From positions 1-34,461 of the IMG/VR virus record IMGVR_UViG_3300031812_000012: 34,461 bases of DNA; one strand, written 5' to 3'. Below are positions 3,436 to 34,461 of the stretch, piece by piece. A model generated the notes under the pieces. That model was not told the origin of the DNA, made no database searches, and saw only the letters and a program-made list of their open reading frames with translations. How positions within the stretch are numbered: position 1 is the stretch's first letter; each line of letters starts with the position of its first letter. The stretch comes from a virus. The position numbers were made by a program, and so were the translations under genes.

Positions 3436-3813
3436 ATGAGTTGCTGTGGTCAGAAATCTCTAGGGATTGCGGCGATTAAAGTCATGCAATCTGCGGCCGG
3501 GATTGGACTAGCCCCTGAGGCGATCATCCGTGACCGCAGGCGAATTTGCGCTCGGTGCGAGCATGCACTGATCGTTAAGGTGGGCGGTCTTTCGGTACCT
3601 GCAACATGTAAGATCTGCGGCTGCATCATCAGCCTGAAGACGCGATTGGCTGCCGAGTCGTGTCCGGCCGACCCGCCTCGTTGGAACCGCTATTCTGATG
3701 CGCAGGTCGATCAGCCTGGGGCGCGCCCCGCAGCAGGCCCAGATAATAGGCAAACGCGACCTGCATCTTCTCACAATCAGCAAGGTGATCCGGCCAACGC
3801 CGGGAGCGCTTGA
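3436..3813 (+). CDS. Small Cys-rich zinc-ribbon-like protein
   Basis: This is the last gene of the rightward arm, 125 aa. Its first about 85 residues contain a Cys cluster: CC at 3-4, RICARCEH, TCKICGC and ESCP. The pattern suggests zinc binding like the short Cys-rich proteins common in phage genomes; its job is unknown. The C-terminal about 40 residues (Gln/Ala/Pro/Asn-rich, no hydrophobic pattern) are read from DNA that also encodes the end of the terminase on the other strand. The tail is probably low-complexity read-through and the conserved core probably ends near WNRYSD. The two convergent genes overlap by 185 bp. Confidence 0.65.
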   Translation: MSCCGQKSLGIAAIKVMQSAAGIGLAPEAIIRDRRRICARCEHALIVKVGGLSVPATCKICGCIISLKTRLAAESCPADPPRWNRYSDAQVDQPGARPAAGPDNRQTRPASSHNQQGDPANAGSA

Positions 3814-5635
3814 CCCAGTTGCCGTCGGACTCTCGCATTTTGCCTTCCATGTGGCGCCAGTATTCCTTGTCTGCTGCGCCCTCTGAAACGGCCCAAGTCT
3901 CCGGGGCCTTCCCGGACCGCAGCAGCTCAAGCAGATCGAGAAAATAGTCGCCGCTGAACTCGAACAGATAGTCCCCATACTTGCCCTGGTCTGCTGTGCC
4001 GTGGAAGGGGTCGTAGGCATGCAGGCGATAGGGCAGCATTTCTCCCGTCTTGGACTTCCAGCGTTTCCTCGATGGGAATCCCTTGGCAGCAAGCCACCCG
4101 TCACGCGGGAAAATCCTTGCGCCTGCGACTGGTTTATCCAACAGGCGACCGCTGCTTGGCGATTGCCAAAGCCATTTGGTTGCCCGTCGGAAACATTCGC
4201 GGTAGACCTCGGCATTTTCGCGTGCGCCATAGCCGGAGTCGACCATCACGCCTGAATTGGCCACGCCATATTTGGCCTGGATCGCAGTCAACTCTTCCCA
4301 CGTATCCGCATGGCCTTGGGCAATAAGGATGGAGTCCCCGCGATTTTCGCCGTCTGCCCGCCAGGCGCGAACGACCCACCAGAAATAAGGCCAGGACTGC
4401 TGGCAGTCGACAGTCATGAGTCGTGTCCATTTGCCCTCCTGCGTGGCCTCTGGTTTTTCGACGATGACCCGCGCCGCGGCAATGGCATCCTGGACCGCCC
4501 ATGGAAGCGCCAGATCGCTGTTGATGAAATTACGGAGGATGTCCGGGTTGGCTCGGCTGGAGAGGTACTTGATCGTCAGTTTGGCCAGGCTTGTTTCTGG
4601 GTGGCTCGCATATAAGGATGGCAGATGATAGCCGCGAATGCCTGGCACGGCCTTTCTAGTAGGCCGCCATTCGCCATGGGCGTCCATCCACAGTTTGTGC
4701 TCATCCGAAATTTTGGCACCGCAATGCGGGCATACGAAGTGGGCAGTCTCAGCCGCAATGCGGATGTCTTCTGGGTCTAGATCATCCCCAATGTCCTTCT
4801 CATTGTCCCAATGGACCCATGCCACGGGGATTTCCTGCTTGTTATCGTCCACGCGTGGCAGGATCTCGACGGTCTCGGACCAGCCGAGGACAAAATACCT
4901 GTCCTTCCGCTTCCCATCCTCTGAGCAATAGGGGCATGGCACAAAGCGCCTTCGGAGGTCCGAGCGCATCAGCCATTGCCAGATCATGCCATCTTCGATG
5001 GTCGGCGTGGACGTCTTGACCCTCATCGGCAGCGGGCAATCTTTGGTGCGCTCATCGATTAGGGCAGACGGATGCGCCTCGACATCGCCGCGGTGTACGT
5101 ACCCGTCAATTTCGTCCTGGATGGTCACGTCGCAGGGATTCCCGGCCAATTGCCTGGCGGAGCCCGTGCCAGTCCAGTCGATGATGCTTCCTGCGATAAT
5201 CTGCTGCAGGAAAGTCATATCGGACCGCCGGTATTGGGTGGGTAATAGAGCAGCAAGCTGCGGAGATGCCTGGAGCATGGGGATCCACTTGGTTCGTGCA
5301 TCATTCCGGGCTCCGCCGGGCCCATGCAAGGCAGGTTTGCACCAGAGGCAACGCATGGGATGATGGACGATGCGCCAGGCTGCTCCGATCAAGAGCGTTC
5401 GCGTTTTGCCAGTCCGGCTGCCCCAGCACAGTATCAGGTCTGAAACCTGCGGCCCCCGCCACAAATCTATGACTTCTTCCATGTACTTGCGGCCGTAGAG
5501 GCTCATCGGGCCGCTGATGCCGGGCTCGCGAAACACAATATTCTTCAGAGCCCACTGGGTGACCGTCTCGTCAGGCCACTCCTTCGCTATCTGGCTCAGC
5601 AGAGTCAGCAGCTTCTTCTCCTGGCTCGATGTCAT
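3629..5635 (-). CDS. Terminase large subunit, GpA family
   Basis: This is the phage packaging ATPase-nuclease, 668 aa from the chosen ATG. It resembles lambda GpA: an N-terminal region (SGPMSLYGRKYMEEVIDLW), a Walker A variant GSRTGKTRT near residues 70-78, a Walker B-like IQDEIDGY near 170, and two CxxC pairs typical of the family (CPYC near 235, CPHCG near 300). The C-terminal half carries the nuclease domain (MTVDCQQSWPYFWWVVRAW). It cuts concatemers and drives DNA into the prohead through the portal. The ATG at 5635 is preferred because AGGAG lies 10 nt upstream; an upstream in-frame start at 5686 would deepen the overlap with the small subunit. The extreme C-terminus is low complexity where it overlaps the convergent gene. 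It is the last gene of the leftward late operon. Confidence 0.93.
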   Translation of the reverse strand: MTSSQEKKLLTLLSQIAKEWPDETVTQWALKNIVFREPGISGPMSLYGRKYMEEVIDLWRGPQVSDLILCWGSRTGKTRTLLIGAAWRIVHHPMRCLWCKPALHGPGGARNDARTKWIPMLQASPQLAALLPTQYRRSDMTFLQQIIAGSIIDWTGTGSARQLAGNPCDVTIQDEIDGYVHRGDVEAHPSALIDERTKDCPLPMRVKTSTPTIEDGMIWQWLMRSDLRRRFVPCPYCSEDGKRKDRYFVLGWSETVEILPRVDDNKQEIPVAWVHWDNEKDIGDDLDPEDIRIAAETAHFVCPHCGAKISDEHKLWMDAHGEWRPTRKAVPGIRGYHLPSLYASHPETSLAKLTIKYLSSRANPDILRNFINSDLALPWAVQDAIAAARVIVEKPEATQEGKWTRLMTVDCQQSWPYFWWVVRAWRADGENRGDSILIAQGHADTWEELTAIQAKYGVANSGVMVDSGYGARENAEVYRECFRRATKWLWQSPSSGRLLDKPVAGARIFPRDGWLAAKGFPSRKRWKSKTGEMLPYRLHAYDPFHGTADQGKYGDYLFEFSGDYFLDLLELLRSGKAPETWAVSEGAADKEYWRHMEGKMRESDGNWVKRSRRWPDHLADCEKMQVAFAYYLGLLRGAPQADRPAHQNSGSNEAGRPDTTRQPIASSG

Positions 5636-6152
5636 CGTCCGCGTTCTCCTGGCCTTTGGTCGGTGGAGCCTGCAAGCCTGCCTCAATCACGCGGCGCAAG
5701 GCGGACACCATGGCCTCGAGGGCTTGTTTACCGACGGCTGGCGCCTCTGGATTCACGTGACCAGCCCAAGCGCCCGGTGCTGATTGTAGCCATTGCGTGA
5801 TTGGCTGGACCAGCCGCAACCCGATCCATCGCTCCACATCCGGCCATCGAACCCATTCCTCATTCGCCAACTCCAAGCGCTTCTCTAAGAGAAGCCTGTG
5901 CGCGCGCTCCTTCGCTGCCCGCTCCTGCGTTAAATCCAGGACGACGGTTGCATCCCGCCTGGCGCCATACGTGTCAAACCACCACGTCAGGAAGCCGCGC
6001 AGATCAACCCGGCTGTGCCGGATGGCCGGGCACCCTTCCCGCTTGGCCATCGTGAAGATCTGCCTTGGGATTCCTGTTGCCGCGCTTGCGTCCGCGATGG
6101 TCCGGAAGATCAGAGGAATTGAGGATGGAGAGGATTTGCCCGGTTGGCTCAT
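5571..6152 (-). CDS. Terminase small subunit, Nu1-like
   Basis: This likely DNA-recognition subunit of terminase is 193 aa. The N-terminus has a helix-turn-helix-like segment (TIADASAATGIPRQIFTMAK) followed by a DLRGFLTWWF stretch. A charged helix (TQERAAKERAHRLLLEKRLE) leads into the EWVRWPDVERW motif seen in Nu1-type subunits. The C-terminus is very acidic (DDDIEPGEEAADSAEPDSE), a plausible contact for the large subunit. It lies directly upstream of GpA, with a 65-bp overlap. I chose ATG 6152; an in-frame TTG at 6194 would add 14 residues, and neither has a clear ribosome-binding site. Assignment rests on the HTH-like start and the position. Confidence 0.8.
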   Translation of the reverse strand: MSQPGKSSPSSIPLIFRTIADASAATGIPRQIFTMAKREGCPAIRHSRVDLRGFLTWWFDTYGARRDATVVLDLTQERAAKERAHRLLLEKRLELANEEWVRWPDVERWIGLRLVQPITQWLQSAPGAWAGHVNPEAPAVGKQALEAMVSALRRVIEAGLQAPPTKGQENADDDIEPGEEAADSAEPDSEGVA

Positions 6153-14605: not shown

Positions 14606-14901
14606 GGGTCTATTCGTTTGGGCAAAATGCTTGCCGCTGGCGGTAGATTCCAAGGCCACCTCGAATGGCTGGAGGCCACATTTGTCGTTACCCACAGCAA
14701 AACCGGCGGCTCAATCTTCGTTGACTCCGGTAATGCTTGGCGATCGCACTCGATTCGATCGGCCTCTTGCTGTATACGCAGAATGCGACGCTCACGTTCA
14801 GCCGCAGCCCACTTGCAGCCTCCGCAGAAAAGCCAAGCTGCATTGGCCAGTAACGCCAACAGTACAATCTGAAGACGCATGTCGCGAAGCAGTTGTGTCA
14901 T
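14602..14901 (-). CDS. Membrane protein, copy 1 of a duplicated pair
   Basis: This 99-aa protein carries one transmembrane segment (IVLLALLANAAWLFCGG), then a short charged coil (AAAERERRILRIQQEADRIE). Its N-terminal about 40 residues match the protein at 14092-14355. Unlike that copy, the C-terminal 45 residues (TKIEPPVLLWVTTNVASSHS and on) lose the coiled-coil pattern and look divergent or frameshifted. The ATG at 14901 overlaps the spike stop as ATGA (14898-14901); a TTG at 14907 is less likely. A lysis-region membrane role is inferred. Confidence 0.6.
   Translation of the reverse strand: MTQLLRDMRLQIVLLALLANAAWLFCGGCKWAAAERERRILRIQQEADRIECDRQALPESTKIEPPVLLWVTTNVASSHSRWPWNLPPAASILPKRIDP
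14829..14895. repeat. Near-identical repeat in duplicated membrane genes, copy 1
   Basis: This is the counterpart of 14278-14345 and begins gaaaagccaagctgcattgg. It encodes the same membrane segment (ALLANAAWLF). Confidence 0.7.
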
Positions 14902-17900
14902 GGCCAAGGGTCAGGCATGTAATCGATTTGACTCTTGAACCAGCGCCATGTCGTGGTGCTGCCGGTTTTGTTGTAAGACCAGATCACCGGCACCATGCTA
15001 GTATCTTCAGTTGGCACCGCCCCCGGCCCCACCGTCGCAACCAGCCTGTTGTTGATGTAGAAACCAAGGCTCTCGTCGGCGTGCCTGATCATGCTCAAAC
15101 GGTATGCCCGCCCAGATTCAATTGGAATTTCGGTTGCGATGAACGTCTGGTCGCCAGATGTAGTGCGCCGCACGAAGATGTTCCAGTTGCCGTTGGTGGC
15201 AACGAATAATGCACTGAGTTGTGTGGCGCCTGGCCAATCCAATGTGCCGCTTGTGTTCGGTGTAATGGTGCCGACGTACATGTTAAGATCGGCCGGCGTG
15301 TCAACGGCAAGAATATGCGTAATCCGCTGAAGGGCCCGATAGGCCGGCGCAATCGCGCCATTATAGAAGACACGGCCACCTGTGCCTATGGCGTTGGTGC
15401 GCAGGAGCAGGTTGCCAGCGATGGTTTGCCCGCTGGCGTTGGTCGTCGTGTTGGCAACTGCGTTGTGCGCCGACCATGAAGCCCCTGGCGAGGCTGCTGG
15501 GGTGGTTCCAGTATTCGGCGCCTGTGCCCACATACTGATGATTTCGGATCCGGGGGCGACGGCGGTTCGATACCAGGCCCATTGATTGGTGTCATGGCTG
15601 GCCACAGTAAGGCCGGGCATCGGCGGGTTGCTGAGCCCCCCGCTCGAGGGCTGCGCCCAGGTTCCATCCCCCCGCAGGAACGTTGTGCTGTCGCGCGTGC
15701 CCGTGGCCGCAATAGAGCTCACGGGGATATTTGTTGTAACAAGATTGGTGCCGACTAGCATTAGCCCATTCGTGGGATGAACGCTCTGCGCCGTGCTGTT
15801 AGTGTCAAGACCCAGCAGCCTGACAGAACTCAATTCGCGAGCGCGCAGAAATGGGCCCGTCACGCGCGCTTCGAAGAAAGGAGCGCTGTACGTCTGACCA
15901 TTGGCTACATTGGAGATTGTGACGGGCATTCCCGAATAATGAGGAAGCGCTGCTGTGGCCGGATTCACCCAGATTGGTGGGGATGGCGACAGGTCATCGA
16001 GAAGGTTAAGACCATGGACACGCAAATATTCACAAGCCCCGCTGTACAGAATTACCGGGTTATAATTGGTGTTCACTCTCGTCACGCGCACGCCATTGAT
16101 ATCGACGGCAAAGGGAGCATGAAAGACAAAAGTCGGGCCGGTTGCCATAAGCTCCAGATTGCCAGCATCGACTCGAACAATTCCGTTCGTGGCCGCCAGG
16201 ATGTTGTTTACTCGCCGGCCCTCAAATGAGCGAAGAGTGAGAGCCTTGCCGGCGATACCATCTAGCGGCCGCCAGACAATGCCAGCGCTGTGTGGCGCTT
16301 CAAACAGATTGGTTCGGTATGTAGAATGCTCGGCGTCGCCAAGGTACACGTGATTTAACTCGGCATTATCAGCGTGGGCAAGGTAAAAGCCGTAGTTGTT
16401 CCCATACATTTCACATTGCTCGGCCAGCAGGCCGACACCATGCCCGATGTAGACGCCGATATAGAAATTATCGACCTTGATCCTGCGCAAAATGAGCCTG
16501 GAGGCTTTCTGTGAGCCAGAAACGCCTGACGCGAAGTCAAATGCTCTGCTGGTGGAAACACTGATCGGTTCACGCGTCTTCGTGATCCGCATATTGCCGA
16601 TTTCAGCCCACCAAAGCTGGTTCGTGCCGCCGTAGTTACCCGTCACTCCATGAACGACAAAGACTGGCGCAGTGGATGATTGCTGCGTGATTAAAGTACG
16701 GTCGATACCGCTTCCCCACACTGTAATGCCATGGGCCCGCAGCGTTAGCGCCTGTGTTATGACGTATATTCCGGGCGGAATGATTACGTAAGTCCGTGCT
16801 CCGTACAGATGTGTGGCGTTTGTGGTCTGATCGAGGGCGGCTTGCAAGTTTGGCCAGTCCTGGGCTCCGTTCCCGGTGGCCCGAGGAGCAACGATGAACA
16901 CGTCGTTGGGGCCGGGTACAGCCCATGTTCCGTCGCCGCGGAGGAACGTGCTCGCATCACGAGTCCCACTGGCAGAGATTCCAGAGACAGGAAGGTTGGT
17001 TGCTTGGACCAAATTGCCAATAATGCGGCCAGAGAAAATGCCCGTAGCCGCGGTTACGGTGTTCAACACGTCCAAGTTGGTCCGCACCGACAGATCCCCG
17101 TAAAACGTTTGCGCGCGATTGGTCCGCGCAACCGCATTGCCCACATCCAACGTGTAGACAGGAAGGTTCGTGGTTACGACGATGTGGTTCGTGTTGGCAC
17201 TGGCAACGTACTCAGTTGTCCCGCCACCACCGCCGCCGCCCGGAGGCACAGCCCATTGGCCGTCCCCGCGAAGAAAGGTTGTACCGTCGCGCGTCCCGCC
17301 GGCCGCAATGCCAGATACCGGAAGGTTGGTCAGCCCCGCAGCATTCCCTTCGAAGAGCGAAGCCGCCACTTTATTGGTCACGTCCAGCCACCCATGTACA
17401 CGCAGCAATCGGTTGTCAAATTCGCCGTAGATCAGCGGAATCGTCGTGTTGCGCGAATGAATCATCAGCCGGTCCACGCGACTGGTCGCATCATCTCGAA
17501 TGCCCCCGATTACGATGTTGTAGGGTGAATCTTCAAAATTCCGCCCCGCTCCGTCGCCGATGAACACTGACCAGCCCGAATTGGTCGCATGGCGCCCGCT
17601 TGCCGCGCCAATGGCGACCATATTCGTGCCACCCGCAGCATAGTCCCCGGCTGCGTAGCCAAGCATTGTGGCGAACGGAGAATTGGCTGCGTTTCGACCA
17701 GCCAGGCTCCCGACAATTACACTATACGGTGAATAAAGCGTGTCGAATGCCGCCTGCTGCCCTAATGCAACAGATTCCGTTAAGTTTGCGCCATACCGGC
17801 CAGCCGCATAGCCAGCAATCAGACTGTATGGCGCATTGGTCGCGAATTCGCCGGCATTCTGACCAATAATCACAGATCGGTATATTGAGTTCGTTGCGCT

Positions 17901-19097
17901 CTGGCCAGCGCGCCAGCCGATCGCCACCGCTTGCTCTGCATTGCCGGCTAGCGGCCCTGCGTGGCCGCCAATGAAGACTCCGCCAAAATAATTGGCTGTC
18001 CCCGTCGCCGGCAAGACGTCGCTTCCAATGCGAACAGTATTCGTCGTAAAGCGCAGCGCATCCACGGTTGCGGTCGAACGCACAATCAAGTTGGTGGTCG
18101 TAATGTTGGTCCGAACCTCAAGATTGCCGAAGAAGGTCTGCGGGCGGTTTGTCCATGCAAGCTCAGCCGGAAGCCGGCCTGCAGGCACTGTCCCTGATGC
18201 CAGCGCAGACGCGTCCAAATTGGTCAGGCCTGCGCCAGAACCGTGAAACGTTGCGGCGCTCGCAACATCGCCGGTCACAGTCGTCCTTCCAAAGATCATC
18301 CAATCGCCGTAGTTGGTCTGATTGCCCCAGAACCGGTGCGACCGGTTGGTTAAAGCAACGCTGCTCGGTAGTCTGGCCACGTCGATTGTGCCGGTGCGGA
18401 GCTCGGTAGCGTTCAGGTTCGTCAGGCCAGAGCCATTCCCGGTAAAGACACCCGCAGCAGAGATCCGCCAGCGCACTGTACCATCCTGCTCACCGGTCAA
18501 ATCGCCCAACGTATGTGCCCCTTGCTGGAACGTCTGCAGCGCCGTCCACGTTATCGCATTCGTGGTAATGGCTACCTGCGGGCCAACCCCAATCGAGTAT
18601 AGCGTGTCGTTGGTTTGTACTATGATCTTCGTCGGATCCAGCGTTGTGATGTACTCGGTCGATCCTATAAGGGATGATATCGGGTTCGTGTAGGTATAAA
18701 TGGTCAGGCCCTGAATGGCCAGTTGGTGCGCCTGGAGCACCGCATTCGTCTCGGGAACGGCAATCAAAATGCTGCCCGGCAGCCCCGCAAAGGTCAGCCG
18801 GTAAACCCCGGGGGCCAAATTCGTCTGCGCCGTGCCGTTTACGGCCTGAAGCGTGATTGGCTGGGAAAGGAAAATGGCGTTGGTCCCCGGGACGGTCCAT
18901 CCCGGAGCGTTCGTGGGCGTGATGGTGATGGCCCGATTCGCGTCCGTCCCGGTCAGCAGCTTAAGGTTAAAGAGGACCGGAGTGGCCTCAGCGATTGCGA
19001 TGGTCAGCCACAGCGTCGTAAGCGCGTAGACCGCCGACGCCACTTTGCGCCAGGCTGACGATAATCCATCGATGACCACGCCCATCAGTGATTTCAT
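14898..19097 (-). CDS. Giant modular tail spike/fibre (1399 aa)
   Basis: This is a host-recognition protein built of modules. Residues 15-37 are hydrophobic (ASAVYALTTLWLTIAIAEA), resembling a signal or anchor. Residues about 200-360 hold 'LTNL..L..GT...RLP..LTNR...F.GN' units. Residues about 370-530 contain about nine YadA-head-like repeats of about 20 aa (SVIIGQNAG, SLIAGYAAG, SVIVGSLAG, SVFIGDGAG, NIVIGG). Three 'GTRD..TFLRGDG.WA.P' repeats lie near 590, 700 and 1125. Residues about 730-1030 form a pectate-lyase-like right-handed beta-helix (IIPPGIYVITQALTLRAHGI), a fold used by polysaccharide-degrading tailspikes. The last about 250 residues look like a LamG/concanavalin-type sandwich. 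GGAG lies 7 nt before the start. It is probably trimeric; depolymerase activity is inferred. Confidence 0.85.
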   Translation of the reverse strand: MKSLMGVVIDGLSSAWRKVASAVYALTTLWLTIAIAEATPVLFNLKLLTGTDANRAITITPTNAPGWTVPGTNAIFLSQPITLQAVNGTAQTNLAPGVYRLTFAGLPGSILIAVPETNAVLQAHQLAIQGLTIYTYTNPISSLIGSTEYITTLDPTKIIVQTNDTLYSIGVGPQVAITTNAITWTALQTFQQGAHTLGDLTGEQDGTVRWRISAAGVFTGNGSGLTNLNATELRTGTIDVARLPSSVALTNRSHRFWGNQTNYGDWMIFGRTTVTGDVASAATFHGSGAGLTNLDASALASGTVPAGRLPAELAWTNRPQTFFGNLEVRTNITTTNLIVRSTATVDALRFTTNTVRIGSDVLPATGTANYFGGVFIGGHAGPLAGNAEQAVAIGWRAGQSATNSIYRSVIIGQNAGEFATNAPYSLIAGYAAGRYGANLTESVALGQQAAFDTLYSPYSVIVGSLAGRNAANSPFATMLGYAAGDYAAGGTNMVAIGAASGRHATNSGWSVFIGDGAGRNFEDSPYNIVIGGIRDDATSRVDRLMIHSRNTTIPLIYGEFDNRLLRVHGWLDVTNKVAASLFEGNAAGLTNLPVSGIAAGGTRDGTTFLRGDGQWAVPPGGGGGGGTTEYVASANTNHIVVTTNLPVYTLDVGNAVARTNRAQTFYGDLSVRTNLDVLNTVTAATGIFSGRIIGNLVQATNLPVSGISASGTRDASTFLRGDGTWAVPGPNDVFIVAPRATGNGAQDWPNLQAALDQTTNATHLYGARTYVIIPPGIYVITQALTLRAHGITVWGSGIDRTLITQQSSTAPVFVVHGVTGNYGGTNQLWWAEIGNMRITKTREPISVSTSRAFDFASGVSGSQKASRLILRRIKVDNFYIGVYIGHGVGLLAEQCEMYGNNYGFYLAHADNAELNHVYLGDAEHSTYRTNLFEAPHSAGIVWRPLDGIAGKALTLRSFEGRRVNNILAATNGIVRVDAGNLELMATGPTFVFHAPFAVDINGVRVTRVNTNYNPVILYSGACEYLRVHGLNLLDDLSPSPPIWVNPATAALPHYSGMPVTISNVANGQTYSAPFFEARVTGPFLRARELSSVRLLGLDTNSTAQSVHPTNGLMLVGTNLVTTNIPVSSIAATGTRDSTTFLRGDGTWAQPSSGGLSNPPMPGLTVASHDTNQWAWYRTAVAPGSEIISMWAQAPNTGTTPAASPGASWSAHNAVANTTTNASGQTIAGNLLLRTNAIGTGGRVFYNGAIAPAYRALQRITHILAVDTPADLNMYVGTITPNTSGTLDWPGATQLSALFVATNGNWNIFVRRTTSGDQTFIATEIPIESGRAYRLSMIRHADESLGFYINNRLVATVGPGAVPTEDTSMVPVIWSYNKTGSTTTWRWFKSQIDYMPDPWP

Positions 19098-22621: not shown

Positions 22622-22973
22622 TTTGGGCGTCGACGAGGTAAGATTTCCGGCTTACACGAGCCAAGACCAGCATCTTGCGGTAGCGCTCTTCTTCACTCTC
22701 GGACGGGTTCGCGGCCGCAAGATCGTCGTACAATTCAACGAGCGAACCCCAGGCCCGAGCAATTTCGGCGCTCGTCACTGCGTGGGCCGCGGCCCCGGTC
22801 CAGTACACCGTGGACAGGGCTCCGTTGGACACAGATTGAATCGACCCGCTCGCGTGGATGGCCGCGGCCGCATCCTCTTGAGACCGCAACACGTCCCTCA
22901 AGGGCTTCCCCTCGGCAACGGCCATGGTCCAAGCCCCTTCCAACATCCGCCTGCGGTCTGTACCTGTAATCAC
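22605..22973 (-). CDS. First gene of the late operon; small head protein upstream of the portal
   Basis: This 122-aa helical protein starts at GTG 22973, with AGGGTGG just upstream, and overlaps the portal gene by 17 bp. It has helices around RRMLEGAWTMAVAEGKPLRDVL and IARAWGSLVELYDDLAAANP, and a basic C-terminus (RVSRKSYLVDAQNARFT). In lambda the slot before the portal gene is held by the head-tail joining protein gpW, but this protein is longer and I see no clear sequence link. It is the promoter-proximal gene of the leftward late operon. Confidence 0.65.
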   Translation of the reverse strand: MITGTDRRRMLEGAWTMAVAEGKPLRDVLRSQEDAAAAIHASGSIQSVSNGALSTVYWTGAAAHAVTSAEIARAWGSLVELYDDLAAANPSESEEERYRKMLVLARVSRKSYLVDAQNARFT

Positions 22974-23249
22974 GCCACCACCCTACTGTAATGATAAGCC
23001 CAGTCAAGCCTAATCCCGCGCAAAATTATGTGCCCGCTCAACCCGCCCAGGATTCGATCTGCCTGGCTTTTTAATTGCGGCGCGGCTCCCCCACTTCGCC
23101 AGAGCGAAAAGCCGGCCGTAGGCTGGTTTAAAGCAATCTGGCGCCAGGCCAGAACAGGACCAGCCGAGCCGCCGCAGCCATAGCGACATAGGCAACCAAT
23201 TGTCAACCTCGGCCGCAAAGGCAGTTGACAATTCGGCATCCGAAATTTG

Positions 23250-23335
23250 CGTAAGTCGTTGAGCATCAACGCTTGTGGCAGGTTATGGCAGGTTTGTGGC
23301 AGGTTGCCACCCGCGTAAGTCATTGAGCATCAACG
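23250..23335. repeat. Duplicated block with CGTTGA-GCA-TCAACG palindrome
   Basis: The segment gcgtaagtcRttgagcatc followed by aacg occurs at 23250-23272 and again at 23313-23335, 63 bp apart, differing at one base. Each is followed by TGGCAGGTT units. The first copy contains a perfect palindrome, CGTTGA GCA TCAACG (23257-23271); in the second one arm base is changed (ATTGA). The six half-turn spacing (63 bp) would put a bound dimer on the same face of DNA. It is likely a protein-binding site tied to the iteron array. Confidence 0.7.
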
Positions 23336-24474: not shown

Positions 24475-24504
24475 AAAAAGAACCCCCGGCAGTTTTGCCG
24501 GGGG
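24475..24504 (-). terminator. Intrinsic terminator of the MoxR-vWA operon
   Basis: Stem CCCCCGGCA / TGCCGGGGG (24483-24491 and 24496-24504, 9 perfect pairs) has loop GTTT. Read leftward it is followed by TTCTTTTT. It lies 38 bp after the last small gene. This is the clearest terminator in the window and isolates the accessory operon from the late genes. Confidence 0.88.
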
Positions 24505-24542
24505 CGTGCGGGCTTTAATATTGGGGGTAGCCCAACTTGCAG

Positions 24543-24764
24543 CTAACTCAACTTATCGCGCGGGACCACCACGTACGGCTTCGCGAAGGCGTACAGCTCG
24601 TATTCGGCCCCCGCGGTGGGAACGGCGCGGACTCCGGAACAGAAAACAAGGGTAAGCTTGTCTTGAGGAGTTTTCTCCTGTGGACAGATACTAATGTGTT
24701 TTTCACCCAGTCGGATCCTGCGGCTGCACATCGGGCTCTGCGGGGCGAGTCTGTGTACTTTCAT
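24543..24764 (-). CDS. Small paralog E of the five-member family
   Basis: This 73-aa protein is the last gene of the accessory operon. It matches the shared pattern: MKV start; S-x2-I17-x-L19-x4-I24 (block 1, with Ser instead of the Gly of the other four); G44-x10-YEL; nine residues; then VP near the end (KPYVVVPRDKLS). It aligns to paralog D without gaps (shared PQ at 28-29, G44, YEL, KP, VVVP, DK), so D and E are the closest pair. It is probably a small beta-rich domain; no enzyme motif, signal or membrane segment is present. The start overlaps D by ATGA (24761-24764) without a good ribosome-binding site, which suggests translation by re-initiation. The family is unknown to me. Confidence 0.8.
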   Translation of the reverse strand: MKVHRLAPQSPMCSRRIRLGEKHISICPQEKTPQDKLTLVFCSGVRAVPTAGAEYELYAFAKPYVVVPRDKLS

Positions 24765-24988
24765 AGACCAAGAAACTTGTCATGAGGGACCACAACGCGG
24801 GGTTTATCGAAGCACCAGAGCTCGTATTCGTATACCTCTTTGGTGCGTTCAACCTCACCAGACCATAGAATGTTGGTGAGCGTGTTCCAGGATGGAATCC
24901 GCTGCGGTAAAATCCAAACGGCTCCTTTCCACACTTGGATCCGATCTCCTCCGACCGGTTTGTAGGGATCGTGGGGTAGTATTTTCAT
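24761..24988 (-). CDS. Small paralog D of the five-member family
   Basis: This 75-aa protein has the block 1 motif G14-x2-I17-x-V19-x4-V24, then PQ (28-29), G44, a 10-residue gap, YEL, nine residues and VP (KPRVVVPHDKFLGL). The pattern of alternating hydrophobic residues (RIQVWKGAVWIL, LTNILWSG) suggests a small beta sandwich or barrel. It is rich in Trp (5), unlike its sisters, so its surface may bind a partner or ligand. It is ATGA-coupled on both sides. The function is unknown; by operon position it is a likely partner or client of the MoxR-vWA pair. Confidence 0.8.
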   Translation of the reverse strand: MKILPHDPYKPVGGDRIQVWKGAVWILPQRIPSWNTLTNILWSGEVERTKEVYEYELWCFDKPRVVVPHDKFLGL

Positions 24989-25221
24989 GGTTCTTTAAAG
25001 CACTGCGAAGGGACTCGGACGACCATCAATCTCTCCAGTCCGGAAATCAGCGCAAAAGGCCACGCTGACTTAGCTTCCCAAGAGATCCCCTTTTCTGTGA
25101 TAGAACGTGCGCGTGCGGTCCGGCTGTCCCGCGACAGCATGCACCCGACAAAGCATGAGTCGAGAAGCACGTGGGGTCCGGCGAGCACGGCTAATGTAAG
25201 CGTGTGACGTTTGATTTTCAT
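24985..25221 (-). CDS. Small paralog C of the five-member family
   Basis: This 78-aa protein is the most divergent copy but keeps every anchor: MKI start; G15-x2-V-x-L-x4-V (GPHVLLDSCFV); G45-x10-FAL; then VP after 11 residues rather than nine (MVVRVPSQCF). The ATG at 25221 is preferred over longer in-frame starts because it overlaps paralog B as ATGA (25218-25221) and begins MKI like its sisters. It is basic in the middle (RDSRTARARS). No known domain is evident. Confidence 0.78.
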   Translation of the reverse strand: MKIKRHTLTLAVLAGPHVLLDSCFVGCMLSRDSRTARARSITEKGISWEAKSAWPFALISGLERLMVVRVPSQCFKEP

Positions 25222-25445
25222 AGCTGGACGCAAGCCGGGACGCGGGCGACGAGCCTGGGGCAGGCTTCGAGAGCATAAAGAAAATGACGTGTGGATTTCA
25301 TTTTGTGTCCATCTGGGAAAAAACACGACACATTCCGCTGCACCAAACACGCGGGGCGCTCAGAAAAGACTCCATTTGCATCAAGCATAAGCGCGTGACC
25401 ACACATCACGAGCTCAGGATTGCTGCTGTTGATCGTGATTTTCAT
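25218..25445 (-). CDS. Small paralog B of the five-member family
   Basis: This 75-aa protein begins MKITINSSNPELVMCG. It has block 1 G16-x2-L-x-L-x4-V (GHALMLDANGV), then FFPDG46, a 10-residue gap, YAL, nine residues and VP (RVPACVQL). It pairs most closely with paralog A (DG, FAL/YAL, PR, VP, ending VQL/VQVL). It has five cysteines in 75 residues. The start is fixed by the ATGA overlap at 25442-25445; a longer frame upstream lies wholly inside paralog A. Function unknown. Confidence 0.8.
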   Translation of the reverse strand: MKITINSSNPELVMCGHALMLDANGVFSERPACLVQRNVSCFFPDGHKMKSTRHFLYALEACPRLVARVPACVQL

Positions 25446-25660
25446 AGTACCTGGACATCCCTTGGGACCTGGGCTGTCGGTCGCGGATCGAGTGACAGCG
25501 CAAAGGGTACATTTTTTTCGGCTGTCCGCTTCACACCGTCGTGTGAAAAGCAGACCACGACACTCGGAAAGACGATCCCCACCTCGACACCTGTCGGCTC
25601 GAGTGTGATGTCGGAACCGAACATTCGTTCGGTTGGAGGTGAACATTTGAGGAGTTTCAT
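25442..25660 (-). CDS. Small paralog A of the five-member family
   Basis: This 72-aa protein is the first of the small genes, coupled to the vWA gene by ATGA (25657-25660). It shows G15-x2-I-x-L-x4-V (GSDITLEPTGV), FSHDG42, a 10-residue gap, FAL, nine residues and VP (QVPRDVQVL). The middle is strongly strand-like (EVGIVFPSVVVCF). It starts MKL like all its sisters, and the junction CTATGAAA is shared with three of the others. No function is recognised. The direct link to vWA translation suggests matched expression. Confidence 0.8.
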   Translation of the reverse strand: MKLLKCSPPTERMFGSDITLEPTGVEVGIVFPSVVVCFSHDGVKRTAEKNVPFALSLDPRPTAQVPRDVQVL

Positions 25661-26760
25661 AGCTCGATGATCACTTTGGGTGTACCCGCGGGGACTGATT
25701 GTTCTGAGTAATCTCCCACGAGCACGGCTATCCAGGGGACATGGATCTGGTTCAAGACCTCCGGATCCGAGAGCCGGAAGTCGGAAATGACCACGATCGC
25801 GGCCGCATCCCGCACAAGTTGGAGCGCGGGACCGATCCGGGTATCGGACGAGTCGATCGACGGAAGGTCGCGGCCGCGGACTACCGCTGCACCTCCGGCG
25901 AACACGACTACTTCGAGGTCAGCCGCGCGCGCAAGACGATGAGCAAGCCCGTGCAGCGTGGACCAGTGTTTCTGGAGTGAACCAGACACGTCGACTAACA
26001 CAGCTACTTTGATCCGCGGTTCGCGGACCACACCGCGGGTAAGCGGGGTGCGTCCCGGTCGCTTGTAATTGCGGGTGTAACTGAACATCCCCGACCGACC
26101 GGATCGGTACGCACGCTGGGAGAGAACCGCAGCGAGACTGCGAACACGCGCTGCGAGCCCGCGCGGATCGGTTGGGGGGAGCGGCTTCTTAGCCGACTCC
26201 ATCCGCTCGATCTGTTCCCGCGCGCGCTCGACGAATTCACGGTGGACTTTCCGCAGTTCATCGAGCGAGCAGCTTGGATCGTGCCGGAGCTCGTCGGTCT
26301 GATCGGACCGTTGCTGCTGATCGGACTGCTGATCCGAGTGCTGCTGTTGGTCAGACTTACCCCGGCCGATGACCGGGACCAGCTCCGCGCGACTGGGAGT
26401 GTAGTTCTTATCCCAGCCGAACAGATCGAGGGTAATCGGTCTACCCTTCGGTCCGTGCAGGCTTTGGCTAGCGCGGAGCAGCTTTTCGCGCGGTAGGCTG
26501 GCGTTAATGACAGCGTCAGCAACCACGTTGAGTTGCTTGGGTGTGAGCCCGAGTTCGAGCGCGCGGCCGGGGAGACAGTCTCCCGAGAGCGCGTGTTGTA
26601 ACTCGTGCCGGAGAAGCACCACGCGGGTATCCTCCGGCAGTCGGGGATCGAGATTGATTCGATACCCCGACCTGGTCAACTCACAGTAACACTCACCTTG
26701 CTCCCAGGTGAGTCGCACCCCGAGCCGGTCGAGCAAGCGAGACCATTCAGGAGGGATCAT
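25657..26760 (-). CDS. Metallopeptidase-like/vWA fusion protein, MoxR partner
   Basis: This 367-aa protein resembles the DUF2201-type group. Residues 1-120 hold a zincin-like site, H52-E-L-Q-H56, followed by NVVADAVINASL (78-89), whose Asp/Asn residues are typical of this domain. Residues 135-156 are a Ser-Asp-Gln repeat linker. A charged helical region (160-245) follows, then a von Willebrand A domain (248-367) with a complete MIDAS: D257-V-S259-G-S261, T307 and D327. vWA proteins paired with MoxR ATPases bind a target through the metal site and let the ATPase remodel or load it. Both sites look intact. The gene overlaps MoxR by ATGA (26757-26760). It is the likely adaptor between the ATPase and the five small proteins downstream. 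Confidence 0.88.
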   Translation of the reverse strand: MIPPEWSRLLDRLGVRLTWEQGECYCELTRSGYRINLDPRLPEDTRVVLLRHELQHALSGDCLPGRALELGLTPKQLNVVADAVINASLPREKLLRASQSLHGPKGRPITLDLFGWDKNYTPSRAELVPVIGRGKSDQQQHSDQQSDQQQRSDQTDELRHDPSCSLDELRKVHREFVERAREQIERMESAKKPLPPTDPRGLAARVRSLAAVLSQRAYRSGRSGMFSYTRNYKRPGRTPLTRGVVREPRIKVAVLVDVSGSLQKHWSTLHGLAHRLARAADLEVVVFAGGAAVVRGRDLPSIDSSDTRIGPALQLVRDAAAIVVISDFRLSDPEVLNQIHVPWIAVLVGDYSEQSVPAGTPKVIIEL

Positions 26761-27728
26761 TTGTCGCTCCTCCTGGCAGCGTAAGCCCGCGCGACGCGCA
26801 CGCAGGCCTCCTTGAATTTTTCAATGATGACCTCTTCCGGTTCGTCACCGCAGAGCTGGCCTGCAGCGGCGACGGCTTCATATTGCCGGTGCAAAGCCCG
26901 GCTGACGAGATCCGGGTCACCCTCGATGAAGAGGGTGGCTAGCGCCTCAGCCCACTTTTGGGCCGGTCCGTGGACAGCGAGCTCTGGGAGCCGAGCCGCG
27001 GCAACGTCAGCGGTAAGCCCCAGCTCGTCCGATTGGAGCGGATTCTCGCTCAGTTTCGCAAGAATCCAGTCCGCGACGCGCGGACCGCAGATACCGCGGA
27101 TGACTAACTCCGGATCCGCACCGGAGCGGATGAGCCGCAGCGCGCAATCGAGCTGCCGCACGCTGGGTTTTTCGAGGACCGGCGGGGCCGGAGCTACCTC
27201 ATCCTTTGCTAACTCAGCCACCCACGGCAGCCGAGTTAGGTTGGCCAGCCGCTCGTAGCCATCAGCGGCCGAGACCGGAATGAAGATGAGCCGCGCGGCC
27301 AGCGCGCGGAGAGTTTCGTCACTCAGCCAGAGGTCGCGGTCGACGGGCTGCATAGCTCCGATAACAATTGTCTCGGGATGCAGCCGCACACCGCGGACCT
27401 CCAGGTCCCAAATCAGGGTCAGGGTAGCCGCGACCACCTCGGGCCGCGGCTTGTCCAGTTCGTCCAAGAACAGCACGTGCGGCCGTTCCGCAGCAGCCCG
27501 CACCCAGTCGGGGAGAGCCCAGAAGGTCTCCCGCCGGACGACGCGTGGAAGCCCGAGCAGGTCCTCGGGCAGCATGGTCTGGAGCAACAAGGTAATGACC
27601 GGCCGATCAAGCGCGGCCGCGAGTTGCCGGACCCGGGCTGTCTTTCCACAGCCGGTGGGCCCGATGAAGCAGGGTCGTAAATTGTGTGACCCTGCGGTGA
27701 GGGTGACTAACTTCACTAGTGTGTTCAT
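26757..27728 (-). CDS. MoxR-family AAA+ ATPase
   Basis: This 323-aa AAA+ ATPase of the MoxR type has Walker A GPTGCGKT (about 23-30), the family stretch QTMLPEDLLGLPRVV, Walker B VLFLDELDK (about 84-92), sensor 1 IGAMQP (about 122-127; usually N-P in relatives) and a helical lid. MoxR ATPases form hexamers and act as chaperones that insert cofactors or remodel partner complexes together with a vWA protein (for example NorQ/NorD, CbbQ/CbbO, RavA/ViaA). The ATG at 27728 begins at the conserved N-terminus; upstream in-frame starts would include the operator-like repeats. The ribosome-binding site is weak. It is the first gene of a seven-gene ATGA-coupled operon. Confidence 0.9.
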   Translation of the reverse strand: MNTLVKLVTLTAGSHNLRPCFIGPTGCGKTARVRQLAAALDRPVITLLLQTMLPEDLLGLPRVVRRETFWALPDWVRAAAERPHVLFLDELDKPRPEVVAATLTLIWDLEVRGVRLHPETIVIGAMQPVDRDLWLSDETLRALAARLIFIPVSAADGYERLANLTRLPWVAELAKDEVAPAPPVLEKPSVRQLDCALRLIRSGADPELVIRGICGPRVADWILAKLSENPLQSDELGLTADVAAARLPELAVHGPAQKWAEALATLFIEGDPDLVSRALHRQYEAVAAAGQLCGDEPEEVIIEKFKEACVRVARAYAARRSDK

Positions 27729-27790: not shown

Positions 27791-27933
27791 CATTCTTACT
27801 CGTCCAGGGAGTCCCACGAGGAGGGTGAGGTGATACTCCCCTTCCCACGACTTACTCCTCCGGGTGTTGCCGCCCACCCGCCCCGGTTCCACCCCGGGTG
27901 TGGTAAGTCGTAAGCCGCCCGCTCTGGAGCTGT

Positions 27934-27945
27934 CGCGCGCGCGCG
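27934..27945. repeat. (CG)6 tract
   Basis: This uninterrupted alternating CG run of 12 bp can adopt Z-DNA under negative supercoiling. It is one of two such tracts in this gene-free region. Confidence 0.7.
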
Positions 27946-28182
27946 GGAGAGCATCGGTGAGACCGCACGCGGTGCGCCGCGGAATCCACTCGGTCCGCGG
28001 ACCGGGGTGGGCTTTCTGCGGTCGCCCACTGCCGCCGGCCGTCAGGCTGGCCGCCCGCCACCGGGAACGCGGGGTCCCGGCTCCCAGGGATGCACCCAGG
28101 GGGATACGAGGGATGGGGAATCCCTCGCTCCACCGACATGGTCTCAGATCCACCGATCCGATCAAATTCCTGGGATCCCCCT

Positions 28183-28196
28183 CGCGCGCGCGCGCG
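28183..28196. repeat. (CG)7 tract followed by TATATTC
   Basis: A 14-bp alternating CG run is directly followed by TATATTCTTTCTTG. It is a potential Z-DNA/structural element next to a melt-prone stretch. Confidence 0.7.
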
Positions 28197-28822
28197 TATA
28201 TTCTTTCTTGTTGTCCCGGGATCTTGCGCGTGCTATGTCATGTCTTGGTATGCGGGCTGCATGCAAGACGCCGCCAGCCGGGCCGAAAACGTTAACGGCC
28301 GACGCCCCGCTTGCGCCGGCGCGCTTGCGGTATCCAGCCCCCACTCACCCGCCCACGACTGTAAACTTTCCCGACAACCGCCGCCGCGGGCCGGATTAGC
28401 GCGAACCCCGGAATCCAGCCAACAACAACGGCGCGCATATGGGCCGGCCGTTGCGCGTTTCGCCTGGGAAAATTTTCTGGGGCCAGCAGTAATGATTGGC
28501 TGGCGCAGCATTTTATCCAAAGTGATTCTGAAACGGCCGCATGAGGCATGGGGCGACTGCCCGCGCCGATTCCCGCCAAGGCAGCCACGGCTCGAGCCAT
28601 TAAGCGCGCGGACCGCCGTGAACACCCGCCTCATGAGCCACTCATATCTGCGGCGGCGGAATTGACAAGAAGCCTCGTCGGCGATGCTGACAGGGCGCGT
28701 TGGCATCGCTTCGGCCAATAGCACCCCCCCCGGGGGGTTGTTTCCGCGGGAGAAAATTGGCCGACCGAAATCTTGCACCATCAACTGATAGCACGCAGCA
28801 TGCCAAAAGCGCCATCCGTCGC

Positions 28823-28844
28823 AAATTTTTTCTGAGAAAAATTT
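28823..28844. promoter_or_regulatory. AT inverted repeat / UP-like element
   Basis: AAATTTTT (28823-28830) and AAAAATTT (28837-28844) are perfect inverted arms around TCTGAG. They lie 11 bp upstream of the -35 hexamer of the next promoter, so this may be an operator or an UP element binding RNA polymerase. Confidence 0.5.
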
Positions 28845-28855
28845 CACGTTTCCAA

Positions 28856-28883
28856 TTGACTTTACGCGGCGCTTAGGGATACT
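28856..28883 (+). promoter_or_regulatory. Likely sigma70-type promoter of the replication arm
   Basis: The -35 is TTGACT (28856-28861), the spacer 16 bp and the -10 GATACT (28878-28883). It is about 97 bp upstream of the first replication gene and immediately downstream of A/T tracts. It is the best promoter I can see in the window. Confidence 0.55.
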
Positions 28884-28980
28884 AGGGCCAGGCTGGCGAG
28901 CGCCCACCTCCACGTTGGTGCCAGCTGGGCGCGGGCTCCTCCAAAGGCGCCTGCCCGCGGCGAACGGGCGCATCAAAGCC

Positions 28981-33838: not shown

Positions 33839-34461
33839 ATGAAGATTGGTAGCGTCTTTGCTGGTATAGGGGGGTTCGACCTTGCGTTTCAAAGGGCTGG
33901 GTGCTATATCGTTTGGCAAATTGAGATAGATCGCTTTTGCCTAAGGGTGCTAAATGAGAGGTTTCCGGACATCAAAAGGTTCAAAGACATCAGAGGGGTC
34001 AAGGCGGACGATCTTGACCCAGTTGACCTTATTTGCGGAGGATTCCCCTGCCAAGATTTCTCCACAGCGGGCAATCGTAAGGGCTTGGCTGGAAGCCAGT
34101 CAGGATTGTGGTGGGAGTTCCACCGTATTGTGGCTGGGCTCCGTCCCGCCTGGATTGTTGTCGAAAATGTGGTTGGAATGCTGTCGTCGCACAGAGGATG
34201 GGACATGGGTGCCATCCTCCGGTCGCTGGGGGACCTGGGGTATTGGTGGGCCTACCGAGTGCTGGACGCTCAATGGTTCGGATTGCCCCAGCGACGCAAG
34301 AGAGTGTTCATTGTCGGACATATTGGAGATAGGACCGCTCCCGCCAAAGTACTACTTGAGCCCGAAGACTGCCCAAGGAATATTACGGATGGCCGCGATG
34401 AGGAGAACGATCACAAAGCTGCCGGAGCCCTTGCGTCGAGCCTTGCAGGATTTGGCTTCTG
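33839..34461 (+). CDS. DNA (cytosine-5) methyltransferase, N-terminal part (continues at 1-452)
   Basis: The first 207 codons of the C5 methyltransferase lie here, running off the window. Motif I is VFAGIGGFDLAF (6-17), which binds SAM. The catalytic cysteine is C71 in GGFPCQDFS (motif IV). Motif VI is VVENVVGM (107-114) and motif VIII is QRRKRVFIVG (151-160). The last 42 codons repeat the left end of the window and the protein continues there to motifs IX and X. The gene begins 28 bp after rusA with no clear ribosome-binding site. It is the clearest proof that the molecule is circular. Confidence 0.95.
   Translation, partial: MKIGSVFAGIGGFDLAFQRAGCYIVWQIEIDRFCLRVLNERFPDIKRFKDIRGVKADDLDPVDLICGGFPCQDFSTAGNRKGLAGSQSGLWWEFHRIVAGLRPAWIVVENVVGMLSSHRGWDMGAILRSLGDLGYWWAYRVLDAQWFGLPQRRKRVFIVGHIGDRTAPAKVLLEPEDCPRNITDGRDEENDHKAAGALASSLAGFGF
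34335..34461. repeat. Right copy of exact 127-bp terminal repeat
   Basis: This is identical to bases 1-127. One copy should be removed when closing the circle, giving 34,334 bp. Confidence 0.95.

Follow-up and report, generated by a model that had tools for sequence, protein, structure and literature searches.

The DNA analyzed here, referred to as the window, comprises 34,461 nucleotides (positions 1 to 34,461 of the IMG/VR virus record IMGVR_UViG_3300031812_000012) and carries a minus-strand operon of seven genes. The first gene, moxR (26757..27728), encodes a MoxR-type AAA+ ATPase of 323 amino acids (aa) with the Walker A motif GPTGCGKT and the Walker B motif FLDE; an alternative GTG start at 27848 is likewise open. 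It is followed by vwa (25657..26760), encoding a 367-aa protein with an N-terminal HExxH metallopeptidase-like domain and a C-terminal von Willebrand factor A (vWA) domain with a complete metal ion-dependent adhesion site (MIDAS), and by five small genes designated A (25442..25660, 72 aa), B (25218..25445, 75 aa), C (24985..25221, 78 aa), D (24761..24988, 75 aa) and E (24543..24764, 73 aa), E being the last gene of the operon. All six gene junctions are 4-base ATGA overlaps. The operon is closed by a strong intrinsic terminator (24482..24505, minus strand) consisting of a 10-pair GC-rich stem followed by TCTTTTT. A first-pass annotation of this DNA had described genes for a MoxR ATPase and an HExxH/vWA protein with five further genes of 72 to 78 codons, ATGA-joined and terminator-closed, and this layout was borne out. 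The same layout was found in a sibling phage (contig IMGVR_UViG_3300032356_000153), where all seven frames and the ATGA linkage are kept. The intergenic region upstream of moxR (27849..28914, about 1 kb), which contains frame-breaking indels relative to the sibling, is the presumed promoter site, and no convincing sigma-70 site was found on its minus strand.

The ATPase/vWA pair is of a known kind. The MoxR protein matched AAA_5 (E = 2.8e-14) and phrog_1297, labelled 'ATPase' (E = 1.2e-21), while the vWA protein matched phrog_1314 (E = 1.8e-7 over residues 41-265), a family whose library label, 'HNH endonuclease', is at odds with the domain content. The HExxH motif of the vWA protein is HELQH at residues 52-56 and is conserved in relatives, and the MIDAS residues D257, S259, S261, T307 and D327 are invariant across distant relatives. 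The gp33 and gp35 proteins of Pseudomonas phage PEV2, recorded as N4 gp24-like and gp25-like, aligned to the pair at 20-22% identity with both HExxH and MIDAS retained. Matches to phrog_1297 and phrog_1314 were also obtained for the pairs of three metagenomic contigs (L017, L021 and L026), and the vWA homologue of L017 matched both DUF2201 models, the N-terminal model above its curated cut-off. Membership being indicated by sequence on both counts, the pair is assigned to the phage N4 gp24/gp25 family (phrog_1297/phrog_1314), and the earlier pairing of the two genes is thus a real one, from a known phage family. The bpMoxR model matched the MoxR protein with an E value of only 0.012, below its cut-off, and PADLOC returned only a weak generic ATPase match. 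The two N4 genes belong to the core of all 25 N4-like phages compared and are middle-transcribed, with no known function (PMC4193335).

Among the small genes, A and B (32% identity, E = 4e-6) and D and E (36% identity, E = 9e-12) are tandem duplicates. The position of C is doubtful, as an alignment including the sibling gave a weak likeness to A (global z of about 6 in one pairing) and the remaining pairs were not significant. The five paralogs proposed in the first-pass annotation are therefore reduced to four. The MK start shared by the small proteins is partly explained by the ATGA overlap, since this fixes A as the first base of the second codon, and a C-terminal VP(R/H)D motif is common to A, D and E. 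No match for A-E was found in Pfam or NCBIfam, gas-vesicle and virion families included, or in a search of solved structures. A tblastn search of E and A against phage records gave nothing significant, and scans of viral contigs with A-E profiles recovered only the sibling. An AlphaFold2 model of E built from ten sequences was unusable (pLDDT 47.8). This lack of family matches, together with a nearly flat codon-position pattern in C-E (14/11/18, 10/7/11 and 5/6/6), is what might be seen if A-E were chance open frames. That explanation was judged extremely improbable. In 100 first-order Markov sequences of equal length, a run of five ATGA-chained open reading frames (ORFs) never occurred and a run of four occurred once, so that the five-ORF chain, present in both siblings, is not due to chance. 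The paralogy of A-B and of D-E is evident at the protein level, indels relative to the sibling are only in-frame, and C-E show an excess of synonymous differences (p = 0.011).

The rates of evolution were estimated from this one sibling pair for 23 genes, leaving out plus-strand shadow frames. While the portal, terminase, capsid protease and most tail genes were 96-99% identical to the sibling, identity was 98.6% for A, 100% for B, 73% for C, 75% for D and 89-90% for E, the values for C and D being the lowest of the 23. The ratio of nonsynonymous to synonymous divergence (pN/pS) was 0.55 for C-E, compared to 0.18 for moxR and vwa together (p = 1.2e-6) and 0.21 for 16 other genes (p = 2.3e-5); single-gene values were 0.45 for C and 0.77 for E. 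C-E thus evolve much faster than moxR and vwa yet remain constrained, the synonymous excess placing them below the neutral ratio. The first-pass annotation had named a lack of purifying selection on A-E as grounds for abandoning its proposal, and no such lack was seen, A and B being near-identical between the siblings and C-E non-neutral. Synonymous divergence (pS) was 0.43 for moxR and 0.32 for vwa but only 0.05 for A and 0.02 for B. The low values for A and B point to recent exchange rather than to strong constraint. With pS high in the pair and near nil in A and B, the operon looks mosaic, as though exchanged piecewise with other phages, and further carriers therefore probably exist.

Distant relatives were sought by MoxR-profile scans of viral contigs, and all those recovered are metagenome contigs. 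In the four next-nearest phage contigs (MoxR identity 38-53% over the best segment), between two and 27 small genes lie beside moxR. On contig L017 (3300023440_000004; identity 39% for MoxR and 29% for vWA), the pair is flanked on both sides by small genes, about ten in number and encoding 59-74 aa. L021/G001 (3300045136_000237; best MoxR segment 53%) has 27, three of them separating moxR from vwa and the other 24 following, mostly with overlapping starts, several start codons having been chosen by hand and some being GTG. L020 (3300045136_000374) has two, with no paralogy seen between them, before the contig ends. On the short contig L022 (4378-4871), two tandem paralogs of 78-86 aa (46% identity), belonging to another small-protein family, precede moxR and overlap its start; moxR is truncated there by the contig end, and the vWA gene would lie beyond it. 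Two adjacent small paralogs (29% identity, E = 1e-11) were also observed upstream of a MoxR gene in Acinetobacter phage At2 (L007:3737-4368). In the MoxR tree, the window, the sibling, L017, L020 and L021 form one clade on one side of a branch with 94/96 support, to be read with caution given the long branches. Scans of genomes with MoxR confirmed no relative, and a vWA profile run over 398 genomes of one phylum gave only weak generic matches and no prophage copy of the window clade.

Small genes that are translation-coupled, lie on the same strand and include tandem paralogs accompany the pair in the window, the sibling, L017 and L021. Within a given phage, the closest paralogs are mostly neighbours (A-B, D-E, g1_01-02, 08-09, 17-18 and 19-20, and l17_s5-s6), which indicates tandem duplication. 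In the phage DNA examined, 11 tandem small-paralog pairs lay within 1.5 kb of MoxR/vWA loci (122 kb) compared to one elsewhere (242 kb), a descriptive count in which siblings and overlapping loci are entered more than once. The array appears to be the new part of the system, the pair itself being already known. The first-pass annotation would have been undermined by unrelated genes standing in place of A-E in relatives, and this was half borne out: the sequences in distant phages show no detectable likeness to A-E, but their size, order and linkage are alike and they have tandem duplicates of their own. For one G001 array member, AlphaFold2 with 25 paralogs gave a beta-beta-beta-beta-alpha model (pLDDT 78), a predicted fold that fits small folded domains and is the only one obtained for a family of array proteins. 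Foldseek searches with this model against the PDB and viral models gave nothing convincing (best E values 0.069 and 0.044), and partial structural matches to p32, Rad50 and the CaMKII hub were not used as evidence.

Small variable genes were also found beside the pair in a separate MoxR clade comprising L023-L032 and the prophages of Luteibacter sp. Sphag1AF (L041) and Dyella sp. SG609 (L042), the only two of 198 genomes sampled from the host bacterial family in which the vWA protein was found. In most members, one to four small genes, several of them ATGA-joined, follow the pair, and their products vary in a low-complexity middle but are constant at both ends, MKYPxG(XG)n...YPYxLVTR. These low-complexity proteins are not comparable with A-E by sequence. 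Their occurrence suggests that small variable genes beside the pair arose more than once. The constant ends of these proteins, and the VP(R/H)D motif of A, D and E, would suit a scheme in which MoxR feeds A-E to the HExxH protein as precursors to be cut into small effector or signal peptides. A parallel exists in zincin/FxSxx-COOH modules, in which a metallopeptidase and small, fast-diverging precursors are coupled to some MoxR-vWA conflict systems (PMC7159879). The whole G001 protein is, however, predicted to be folded, as would suit a domain better than a linear precursor, and a common cleavage motif across the phages was not found. Peptide processing was therefore considered unlikely.

The setting of the operon bears on a structural role. 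An exact 127-bp direct terminal repeat (1-127 and 34335-34461) indicates that the phage genome is complete at about 34.3 kb. The window is a tailed phage, with a lambda-type portal and a ClpP-like capsid protease among its structural genes, a terminase gene at 3629-5686 on the minus strand, and further genes for a primase, a sliding-clamp homologue, RusA and a PD-(D/E)XK nuclease; a DNA methyltransferase gene is present at each end. Plus-strand small ORFs at 4.0-5.4 kb were rejected as genes, being shadow frames opposite the terminase gene. At 34.3 kb and with a lambda-type portal, the phage does not have the N4-type genome of about 70-75 kb (Schitoviridae), and the portal relatives in known phages are distant, with none N4-like among the matches listed. 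Two further departures from the sibling were seen. Within a 1399-aa gene at 14898-19097, the part at about 16.0-18.3 kb was poorly matched or 70-88% identical, with flanks at 95-99%, and is either a mosaic or a fast region. A gene adjoining the portal (22970-23323) was 80% identical with a nonsynonymous ratio of 0.59, unlike its neighbours.

The operon is flanked by the structural module and by a plus-strand early module, which starts at 28915 (phrog_3657, E = 2.8e-34) and from which it diverges. In relatives, the neighbours of the pair are a primase and RusA (L021), replication initiation, RusA and RecE genes (L020), a DNA polymerase and helicase (L017), and Erf (L026). These replication and recombination neighbours are more in keeping with early or middle expression than with a late role in the virion, as judged from gene order rather than timing. 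In the virion-assembly explanation, the tail or other parts of the virion would be assembled or matured by the pair, acting as a chaperone/protease, with A-E as small structural or scaffolding subunits. A precedent is seen in gas vesicles, where the AAA+ ATPase GvpN is encoded beside small related shell proteins. Virion assembly and proteolytic processing were proposed by Iyer et al. for the pair of group 2.2 jumbo phages (PMC7824862), and the genes of some virion proteins lie close to the gp24/25 homologues of Roseobacter N4-like phages (PMC4193335). Against such a role, the operon is a transcription unit apart from the structural module, DNA-metabolism genes adjoin the pair in relatives, and C and D change fastest of all the proteins compared, the portal, capsid protease and most tail proteins being nearly unchanged. 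The array size also varies from 5 to 27, and neither GvpA nor virion families were matched. It was concluded that a role in virion assembly is rather unlikely. The virion appendage envisaged in the first-pass annotation is weakened by the place of the operon, apart from the structural module and divergent from the early one, and by the neighbours of the pair in relatives; its other guesses, host takeover or anti-defence, fit better but are unproven.

We hypothesize that the operon encodes a constant AAA+/metallopeptidase-vWA machine together with small partners that diversify rapidly and are probably its client or specificity subunits in host takeover or counter-defence. This is the explanation we favor, tentatively, and at somewhat less than an even chance. 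That the pair and the small genes probably work together is deduced from the recurrence of small tandem genes beside the pair in distant phages. To this extent the interpretation in the first-pass annotation is supported, while the hetero-oligomer of A-E that it had the pair assemble is conjectural. By analogy with MoxR-vWA systems, a hexameric MoxR motor would work through the vWA MIDAS, holding and remodelling or unfolding bound proteins, and the HExxH domain, with its predicted metallopeptidase activity, may cut the proteins so bound. The small proteins would be variable subunits choosing the substrates of the machine or serving as its clients. Because members of the array duplicate in tandem and diverge fast, and because the neighbours are mostly early or middle DNA-metabolism genes, the machine probably acts on components of host takeover or defence and not on the conserved virion proteins of the phage. 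A stronger form of the proposal, a programmable machine whose fixed core is aimed by an array of small adaptors under birth and death, from 5 to 27 genes, and tracking host defences, is possible but doubtful.

Several observations weigh against the favored explanation. The small proteins are tied to the machine by co-location alone, and the local-association count rests on loci selected for containing MoxR. A and B have hardly changed between the siblings, N4-like phage PEV2 has the pair without a comparable array, and the virion genes near gp24/25 homologues in Roseobacter phages favor a structural role. No similarity was detected between A-E and the small proteins of the other phages (best HMM E value 0.29; hhalign probability 0.5); judged by sequence, the latter may be several unrelated families, or alternatively one family that has diverged past recognition. 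Small, unrelated early genes are numerous in phages, and A-E might accordingly be ordinary host-takeover or anti-defence genes that share the transcript of the pair and act independently of it, as would fit the differences in small proteins from phage to phage. We regard this as distinctly unlikely because tandem small paralogs recur beside the pair in several phages, in L021 even between moxR and vwa, and because the ATGA coupling is strict.

The proposed machine with diversifying partners may be compared to several known systems. Gas vesicle clusters likewise place a MoxR-like AAA+ protein, GvpN, beside the small paralogous proteins GvpA/J/M/S, but A-E match no gas-vesicle family and the window ATPase gave only a generic score to GvpN (25.3 bits; cut-off 266.8). 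The p618/p892 proteins of Acidianus two-tailed virus are linked to tail development. They are also a viral MoxR-vWA pair, although from an archaeal virus and reported to be without a peptidase domain (PMC7824862). The group 2.2 jumbo phages share a vWA domain fused to an N-terminal metallopeptidase beside MoxR; they differ in having giant genomes and a proposed virion-assembly role, and the passage describing their pair does not mention a small-gene array (PMC7824862). The MoxR-vWA ternary conflict systems share a constant core with variable components, some with a metallopeptidase and small diverging peptides, but occur in multicellular bacteria and include one more invariable component, for example VMAP (PMC7159879), none being present in the window operon. 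Another counterpart is N4 gp24/gp25 (PEV2 gp33/gp35), a homologous MoxR-type ATPase and HExxH/vWA protein encoded by neighbouring genes in an early or middle context. It differs in its low identity (about 20-22%) and, in PEV2, the lack of such an array, whereas the window genes are directly joined and followed by A-E. The arrays in small phages provide a direct handle on the N4 pair, pointing to its likely partners and suggesting that these are under pressure to change. If the adaptor form of the proposal is true, phages would have a novel means of directing a single machine against many targets.

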